A DNA stretch of 64,000 nucleotides. Source: Roseibium aquae. Lineage in GTDB: Bacteria; Pseudomonadota; Alphaproteobacteria; Rhizobiales; Stappiaceae. The stretch covers positions 124,001-188,000 of the forward strand of contig NZ_VXDC01000002.1 in NCBI RefSeq assembly GCF_008711285.1, given 5' to 3'. Under the pieces are notes generated by a model. It worked only from the letters and a program-made list of their open reading frames with translations, did not search any database and was not told the origin of the DNA. Below, one piece after another: positions 32,045 to 33,108 of the stretch (positions are counted from its first letter, which is position 1; each line of letters starts with the position of its first letter). Both the position numbers and the translations under genes were made by a program.

Positions 32045-32059
32045 TTAACGTTGCGTTTA
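32045..32059. promoter_or_regulatory. Near-match CtrA box before the YjfB-like gene
   Basis: TTAA, seven bases, TTTA; one mismatch to TTAA-N7-TTAA. It ends 43 bases before the ATG of the YjfB-like gene. Several one-mismatch sites are expected by chance in a window of this size, so it is weak alone. Confidence 0.35.
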
Positions 32060-32102: not shown

Positions 32103-32306
32103 ATGGATACTGTCAGCCTTGCCAATGCCTACGTAGCCAGCACCCAGGCTCAAACCGGCCAGGCACTGCAGGCCAAACTCTTGAAGATGTCCGCCGACCA
32201 GCAAGCTGGTGTCGTCGCTCTTCTCGAGGCCGGCGCCCAGGGTCTCGAATCGGCGCAGGCAGCCCCCCCTCAGGGCCTTGGCACCGCCATCGACGTCACG
32301 GCTTGA
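32103..32306 (+). CDS. YjfB-like putative motility protein
   Basis: 67 aa. It is mostly helical (residues 4–45, rich in Ala, Gln and Leu) with AQTGQALQAKLLKMSADQQ, then a short linker and the end GLGTAIDVTA. This matches the layout of the YjfB putative motility family as I know it: an N-terminal Ala/Gln helix and a C-terminal Leu-Gly-x-x-(Ile/Val)-Asp-x-x. No Cys, Trp, signal or membrane segment. GGAG at 32092–32095 supports the start. The same tail ends the next two small proteins. Confidence 0.7.
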   Translation: MDTVSLANAYVASTQAQTGQALQAKLLKMSADQQAGVVALLEAGAQGLESAQAAPPQGLGTAIDVTA

Positions 32307-32590
32307 TCGTCTTTGACTGAACGAAAACTCCTAGTGGTCGGTATCGTATTTTTTCGGCTCCGGTGAAGCCGGGGCGTGTTATGGCTTTTTGGATCGAAAT
32401 CAAGCTGACCTTCTTTCAAAAAACCTTTGTTTTCATGCCGATGATCGGAATTATCTAAAATTTTATTAAATACCCTCCGATAAGGTAAGCGGCTTCTTTT
32501 CTCTATCCTGAAGCAGCTGCCTCCCTTTACTTTTCTTTCGGGTGCAAGTGGTGACATATAGGCGAGTATTATCCAAGAACTGGAGTACTC
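32307..32590. other. AT-rich spacer between the first and second small genes
   Basis: No gene. The base composition is markedly AT-rich for this window from about 32390 to 32530. It holds a one-mismatch CtrA box (32455–32469) and a TATTAT hexamer (32567–32572) without a good partner. A control region for the second and third small genes is likely. Confidence 0.45.
32455..32469. promoter_or_regulatory. Near-match CtrA box before the second small gene
   Basis: CTAA, seven bases, TTAA; one mismatch. The surrounding AT-rich sequence raises the chance of coincidence. It lies 121 bases before the ATG at 32591. Confidence 0.25.
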
Positions 32591-32851
32591 ATGCCTGAGG
32601 GAATTGGATATTCGTCCGCCCAGGCGCTTAGTCAATCGACCGTCCTTCCGCAAAACGAGCGGATGGCCGAAAAGGCCGAGGCGGTCCGGACCCGCCAGGG
32701 TGAAGCGGTCGCGGAAATCGTTGGCCGCCAGGCGCAATTCAGCAGCAGCCGGGCCGAGACGCTCGCCCGGCAAGCTGAGCAACTCGAAAACCGGGTCGAG
32801 ACACGAAATGACCAGAATGGCCTGGGGAACCGCGTCAATCTCGTCGTTTGA
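32591..32851 (+). CDS. Small helical protein with C-terminal GLGNxV(N/D) tail, first of a pair
   Basis: 86 aa; no known family recognised. It is hydrophilic and rich in Arg, Glu, Gln and Ala, with a long helix from about residue 20 to 72 (VRTRQGEAVAEIVG, then SSSRAETLARQAEQLENR), no Cys or Trp, no signal peptide and no membrane segment. It ends GLGNRVNLVV at the stop codon. GGAGT precedes the ATG. GC-rich third positions support coding. The next small gene begins 44 bases later. An unrelated minus-strand open frame over it is rejected. Confidence 0.65.
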   Translation: MPEGIGYSSAQALSQSTVLPQNERMAEKAEAVRTRQGEAVAEIVGRQAQFSSSRAETLARQAEQLENRVETRNDQNGLGNRVNLVV

Positions 32852-32895
32852 CCGGACCGGGCGTGCCGCAAGGCGAACCATTGGAGTTTGGAATC

Positions 32896-33108
32896 ATGGC
32901 AAGCATATCTGACAGCACCAGCTCTGCGGCTGCCTACAGCACGGCGAATGTCCGCAGCGAACTGGCGACGAACGCGATTCGGGATCAAAACGAGCAGGAA
33001 CGCCAGGTGGCCGAACGTCTGGAAGAGGCTGACGCGACCGAGCAGCAGGAAGAACGTGAGAACCGGCAGATCCCCGGGCTTGGAAACGCCGTCGACATCA
33101 CCGTCTGA
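32896..33108 (+). CDS. Small helical protein with C-terminal GLGNxV(N/D) tail, second of a pair
   Basis: 70 aa; no known family recognised. The N-terminus is Ser/Ala-rich (ISDSTSSAAAYSTANV). The middle is a charged helix (QNEQERQVAERLEEADATEQ). It ends IPGLGNAVDITV at the stop. No Cys or Trp. The tail matches that of the two preceding proteins and the body resembles the one before. GGAGT stands 10 bases before the ATG. Probably co-transcribed with the previous gene. Confidence 0.65.
   Translation: MASISDSTSSAAAYSTANVRSELATNAIRDQNEQERQVAERLEEADATEQQEERENRQIPGLGNAVDITV

Follow-up and report, generated by a model that had tools for sequence, protein, structure and literature searches.

Three neighbouring small proteins of Roseibium with a common C-terminal signature: a YjfB-type protein, two lineage-specific companions and a possible flagellar role

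Three small genes and the kinship of the first to YjfB

The window, that is the whole stretch of 64,000 nucleotides from Roseibium aquae which was analyzed, contains three consecutive small genes, here called P1, P2 and P3 (Table 1). The original prediction had described them as small open reading frames with GGAGT ribosome sites, encoding proteins free of Cys and Trp, and this description was confirmed: GGAGT lies 4–8 nt upstream of the ATG of each gene, and both residues are missing from the three window proteins and from all 75 Roseibium P1, P2 and P3 proteins (0/75). A first set of 41 genomes (the window's own, 24 of Roseibium and 16 others of the order) was searched for the three. P1, P2 and P3 were all found in 25/25 Roseibium genomes (own plus 24), where phmmer over the genomic stretches recovered them in constant order; the 16 other genomes of the order gave three matches for P1, one weak match for P2 and no match for P3. 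Spacing across Roseibium was 181–343 nt between P1 and P2, with one exception of 1422 nt in a single genome (G014, locus L083), and 28–136 nt between P2 and P3.

Table 1. Features of the three-gene locus (positions within the window).
Feature	Position	Strand	Description
P1	32103..32306	+	67 aa, YjfB-type small protein; PF14070 match; in 25/25 Roseibium
P2	32591..32851	+	86 aa, lineage-specific tail-bearing small protein; in 25/25 Roseibium
P3	32896..33108	+	70 aa, lineage-specific tail-bearing small protein; in 25/25 Roseibium
P1 tail GLGTAIDVTA	32274..32303	+	directly before stop; fits tail rule in 25/25 Roseibium
P2 tail GLGNRVNLVV	32819..32848	+	directly before stop; fits tail rule in 25/25 Roseibium
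P3 tail GLGNAVDITV	33076..33105	+	directly before stop; end of core IPG[LM]GxAVD
CtrA-type site TTAA-N7-TTTA (TTAACGTTGCGTTTA)	32045..32059	+	one mismatch to TTAA-N7-TTAA; starts 58 nt before P1
TAAAATTTTA palindrome	32456..32465		conserved box about 135–137 nt before P2

Ratios of dN/dS were calculated by the Nei-Gojobori method, using those of the 300 Roseibium pairs per gene with dS of 0.05–1.5. The medians were 0.147 for P1 (maximum 0.515, 79 usable pairs), 0.234 for P2 (maximum 0.454, 49 pairs) and 0.186 for P3 (maximum 0.407, 75 pairs), values that place each of the three frames under purifying selection. P1, P2 and P3 are real genes; the second and third frames, on whose conservation the original prediction had been made to depend, were kept throughout the 25 Roseibium genomes with dN/dS far below one.

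The resemblance of the first protein to the YjfB family, which had been proposed, was upheld. P1 matched PF14070 (YjfB_motility) with an E-value of 9e-6 and 26.1 bits, 0.9 bits short of the gathering cut-off of 27, and the alignment placed residues 7–66 on positions 2–57 of the 57-position profile. Thirteen of the 14 members of the P1 alignment, the window's included, matched PF14070 at E ≤0.01 (best 2.2e-8). Because the cut-off was missed so narrowly we refer to P1 as YjfB-type. P1 is similar in size to the putative motility proteins of PF14070, such as Bacillus subtilis YjfB, and matches nearly the full length of their profile, whereas P2 and P3 gave no match to it at E up to 1, nor did any member of their alignments (17 and 17 proteins) at E 0.01. 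The second and third proteins, for which no family had been recognised, likewise gave no convincing match in Pfam, and none of the three matched NCBIfam at E up to 1. A P1 profile compared with solved structures returned insignificant matches alone (cytochrome c', a cyclase; E 0.7 or worse). No functional study of YjfB was found in the freely accessible literature searched; one report enters yjfB only as hypothetical in a microarray table (PMC4326333).

The C-terminal tail

The three proteins had been said to share an exact tail. A common pattern directly before the stop was indeed found, G-L-G-x-x-[VI]-[DN]-[VIL]-x-[AV] in the window proteins, but several positions vary and "exact" was too strong a word. 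With the last residue counted as −1, we defined a tail rule of Gly at −8, an aliphatic residue at −5, Asp or Asn at −4 and Ala, Val, Ile or Leu at −1 (G-x-x-aliphatic-[DN]-x-x-[AVIL]-stop), which P1, P2 and P3 share with the PF14070 family. All 75 Roseibium proteins (25/25 for each gene) fitted this rule, P1 always with Ala or Val at −1. So did the P1 relatives tabulated for genera of the order other than Roseibium (23/23, likewise with Ala or Val at −1; taken from 24 loci among the 118 genomes outside Roseibium that have a P1 relative, the remaining locus, L147, fitting too) and 25/25 tabulated PF14070 proteins across the phylum (from a set of 26 matches outside the window's own genome, the one further protein also fitting); these relatives were found with profiles that include the tail, so that a tail-less relative could be missed. 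Named copies (34 of P1, 35 of P2 and 36 of P3, overlapping the Roseibium set) gave no exception. The fixed C-terminal position that had been proposed was therefore borne out, the spacing between signature and stop being constant in every copy tabulated. Since the rule also held for the PF14070 proteins across the phylum, the tail is on this evidence the general YjfB terminal signature, measured from the carboxyl end, and not one private to the locus.

The tails exceed what chance would give: within the window, the pattern G[LIVM]Gxx[VIL][DN][VIL] occurred three times in 90,551 residues (713 frames running from stop to stop, none shorter than 50 aa, over all six frames), each time as the C-terminus of P1, P2 or P3. 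A 12-column tail profile run against the window's own genome at E up to 10 found five places, including the three window C-termini; the fourth and fifth matches lay inside long frames, about 250 and 160 codons from a stop, and were rejected as a further tail-bearing gene, with the proviso that a 12-column model is weak and a diverged fourth copy could be missed.

The tail was also the better conserved part of each protein when Roseibium was compared with Pannonibacter. For P3 the last 10 residues were 80% identical and the body 34%; the corresponding values for tail and body were 58% and 29% in P2 and 54% and 43% in P1. Among the last 12 columns of P3, the I, P, both G, A, V and D were invariant in 25/25 Roseibium genomes. 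Profile-profile comparison of the P1, P2 and P3 families with hhalign gave probabilities of 78–88%. With extended alignments these were 83–88% at full length and 0.2–4.6% once the last 12 residues were removed, and reversed bodies gave 0.1–0.6%; the tail is therefore the only part which is detectably shared.

The helical character that had been attributed to all three proteins was supported for P1 and P3 by AlphaFold2 models, at low confidence. With 31 alignment rows each, P1 was modelled as one helix over residues 3–52 (mean pLDDT 62, pTM 0.29) and P3 as one helix over residues 7–56 (mean pLDDT 64, pTM 0.31), and both tails were without secondary structure, again at low confidence. The models are weakly consistent with a helix carrying a peptide which orders on binding.

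Distribution, upstream elements and the association with flagellin

A survey of 397 genomes of the order found P1 relatives in 126. P2 was found in 14 of the 397 at E 0.01, ten matches being strong (E <0.001) and four having E >0.001; the strong ones came from Roseibium (8) and a genus of the same family (g295, 2 genomes), and from no other among the 397. The P1 proteins of this genus are identical to those of loci named as Pannonibacter, and on that ground we treat it as Pannonibacter. A pattern search of named genomes recovered P3 relatives at 36 loci, mainly of Roseibium/Labrenzia with four of Pannonibacter, and a few records filed under Stappia sp., Rhodobacterales, Rhodobacteraceae or unclassified alphaproteobacteria. 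All three genes were present at 34 of these 36 loci. The exceptions were L091, with neither P1 nor P2 in the short stretch examined, and L125, a Pannonibacter stretch with P2 and P3 in which P1 was not found. As to the expectation that the set recurs together in related bacteria, P1 relatives do occur across the order, but the set as a whole does not recur widely: P2 and P3, and with them the complete trio of genes and the core IPG[LM]GxAVD of P3, are so far known from Roseibium and Pannonibacter.

The genomic setting was constant. In 25/25 Roseibium genomes the set stands between a 3-hydroxyacyl-CoA-dehydrogenase-like gene (assigned by eye) and an opposite-strand TlpA-like gene with a Redoxin/AhpC-TSA Pfam match, with LysA (by eye) beyond in 24/25, the missing case lying near a contig end. 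Beyond the family, but within the order, P1 often keeps at least one of the same neighbours, as judged by eye (L139, L140, L144, L152, L153, L157 and L160 among 14 loci listed). In a sister genus (g294, locus L153) P1 follows the same AMP-ligase-like gene and P2 was not found. P1 would thus have long stood alone at this constant site, and P2 and P3 would have been added beside it later. Nearness to flagellar genes, which had been put forward as a check, was not seen: no flagellar gene adjoins the set in any of the 25 Roseibium stretches, where it stands between metabolic genes and the TlpA-like gene. Elsewhere in Pseudomonadota, inspection by eye of 14 of 26 YjfB loci showed no evident flagellar neighbour within 1.5 kb per side.

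Upstream of P1 a conserved element was found. The sequence TTAA-N7-TTAA is the described CtrA full site (PMC6180460), and CtrA governs flagellar genes in several alphaproteobacteria (PMC6180460; title of PMC3692519). Before P1 it was exact in 20/25 Roseibium genomes, beginning at −51 to −69, and present with at most one mismatch in 25/25. Composition shuffles gave a mean of 0.04 exact sites (maximum 2) and 1.07 within one mismatch (maximum 6), random windows of the same loci gave 0.28 and 0.55, and the 64-kb window as a whole holds three exact and four one-mismatch sites. The region upstream of P1 in 23 other genomes had six exact sites, all in two genera of the same family, and 15 within one mismatch, counts which are uncorrected for kinship; the shuffles there gave 0.07 exact and 1.08 within one mismatch (maximum 5), and random windows 0.49 and 1.13. 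Of the five upstream regions of flagellin-family genes in the window's own genome none carried an exact site and two a one-mismatch site, nor was an exact site seen in the flagellin stretches of three relatives, and for this reason the site is claimed for P1 alone. The conservation suggests that P1 belongs to the CtrA regulon. The CtrA-regulated fla2 promoters of Rhodobacter sphaeroides likewise have a full site upstream (PMC6180460), but they serve structural flagellar operons, whereas P1 is an orphan gene with a predicted site.

P2 had no conserved CtrA-type site upstream in the 25 Roseibium genomes. The TAAAATTTTA box was present there with at least nine of its ten bases in 19/25, near −137 (shuffle mean 0.94, maximum 4). 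A sigma-28-like promoter noted by eye before P2, TAAAATTT-N12-TCCGATAA, was discarded, as its second half is not conserved and only the TAAAATTTTA box is kept. A consensus scan of the plus strand found neither a sigma-70-type promoter nor an intrinsic terminator between the genes. The original prediction's suggestions of co-production, of export and of an axial structure found no support in the analysis; as to the first, P1 and P2–P3 carry different conserved upstream elements.

The distribution of P1 was compared with that of flagellin, flagellin_N being found in 296 of the 397 genomes of the order. Both were present in 121 genomes, P1 only in 5, flagellin only in 175 and neither in 96, so that the P1-type family occurs in flagellated bacteria: flagellin was found in 121/126 P1-positive and 175/271 P1-negative genomes (Fisher p 1.5e-13, kinship uncorrected). 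Four of the five flagellin-less exceptions, the genus of each of which was verified by hand, are assemblies 71–84% complete. At the level of genera, flagellin was present in 46/47 with P1 and 58/94 others (p 4.5e-7, kinship likewise uncorrected). One sister genus of the same family (g297; G715, G742 and G777) has flagellins and no P1 or P2 match; the set is therefore dispensable for flagella as such, and this genus offers a natural contrast for its function.

In other phyla, YjfB is listed as an "uncharacterised small protein" in a FlgV-associated sub-module with sigma-28 and FapA (PMC11607428). The YjfB family is common to that sub-module and to the Roseibium locus; in the former YjfB stands beside flagellar genes, whereas Roseibium P1 lies among metabolic genes and has a CtrA-type site and not a sigma-28 context. 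The flagellar connection which the original prediction had raised is thus supported by flagellin co-occurrence, by the CtrA-type site and by this published association with sigma-28 and FapA (PMC11607428).

Contig C12 of the window's own genome has three tandem flagellin_N genes (L199, L200 and L201; 385–504 aa), with matches spanning 4.3 kb. In two other Roseibium genomes (L164:5646-9525 and L163:1938-5831) an ECF-type sigma gene is directly followed by a canonical flagellin gene and then FliD, families which Pfam confirmed in L164. That P2–P3 might be tied to such a second flagellar system, of FliD type and with an ECF sigma gene, was considered and rejected: the window's genome gave no FliD_N match yet has P2 and P3, and the TAAAATTTTA box was absent from the three flagellin stretches examined.

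A candidate docking peptide and the alternatives

The conserved eight-residue end is carried by unlike helices, is measured from the free carboxylate and occurs in this genome in three neighbours only. This suggests a peptide by which all three dock on a common receptor, and the link to flagellin together with the CtrA-type site points to the flagellum or its control. We therefore favour, at about an even chance (roughly 0.5), flagellum-linked accessory proteins which each consist of a helix and a free C-terminal peptide docking on one shared partner. P1 would be a YjfB-type accessory protein and putative CtrA regulon member, and P2 and P3 lineage-specific companions that join its terminal signature to other helical bodies. 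Each protein may form a long, mostly single helix which self-associates or packs on a flagellar component, while roughly the last eight residues, without structure on their own, would bind in an extended conformation in a single conserved groove that reads G-x-x-aliphatic-D/N-x-x-A/V plus the free carboxylate. P1, P2 and P3 could then co-assemble on the same receptor or compete for it, with P1 under CtrA timing and P2 and P3 under a different switch. Here we infer both the partner and the mechanism, that is, the receptor, its flagellar location, the binding mode, the competition among the three proteins and the control by CtrA.

Plain descent would account for part of this, and we hold it possible, at well below even odds, that P2 and P3 arose from P1 by tandem duplication and that their bodies then diverged fast, the tail being merely the slowest part and having no docking role beyond folding or dimerising. 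The genes are adjacent, on the same strand and of similar size, and the g294 locus with P1 after the same AMP-ligase-like gene, where no P2 was detected, fits such an origin. The hhalign alignment of P1 with P3 spans 57 columns, in one genome the P1 profile gave weak matches to P2 and P3 (E about 0.005), and in a class-wide search of 385 genomes (two positive, the window's own included) positions 6–44 of the P3 profile matched one protein of about 58 aa from another alphaproteobacterium (E 5.8e-4), which is of YjfB size and carries the tail, a hint of deeper kinship between P3 and YjfB. However, the bodies without their tails are not detectably related (0.2–4.6% in hhalign), and a tail fixed to the stop on bodies no longer alike still needs a shared constraint; descent explains how the tail came to be common to the three but does not account for its being the one part that kept its place relative to the stop. 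The two readings, duplication and shared docking, do not contradict each other.

C-terminal degrons and PDZ ligands are recognised protein-end signals, and the tail might serve as such a signal for proteolysis or for a PDZ-type domain, in which case the proteins would be short-lived regulators and not assembled parts. All the proteins tabulated keep a constant distance to the free carboxylate and end in a small or aliphatic residue, which agrees with this, as do the terminal Ala or Val and the aliphatic residue at −3 of the three window proteins. We consider it unlikely because conservation reaches beyond the last three residues, to Gly at −8, the aliphatic residue at −5 and Asp or Asn at −4, and we know of no C-terminal degron that needs anything as far upstream. 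Less probable still is a C-terminal export signal on flagellar secretion substrates or minor axial components. The long predicted helix, the lack of Cys and Trp and the co-occurrence with flagellin would suit it, but the five flagellin-family proteins of the window's own genome end differently, and the flagellar export signals known to us are N-terminal.

The docking reading also has a wider and distinctly more speculative version. In it the YjfB tail would serve throughout the phylum as a conserved docking peptide, recognised together with its free carboxylate by one conserved flagellar receptor, and Roseibium and Pannonibacter would have built a three-ligand set of unlike helices under separate switches. 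Were this true, a single receptor could take up different helices at different times.

The small-protein family YjfB is widespread, yet we found no function assigned to it in the literature searched; the locus makes it a testable problem. The eight-residue rule held in every protein tabulated, and the three genes provide a natural three-way comparison in which the tail alone is detectably shared. The CtrA-type site upstream predicts a time of P1 expression, sister genera that have P1 without P2, or lack both, are available for contrast, and the tail peptide would be a ready bait for the missing partner.
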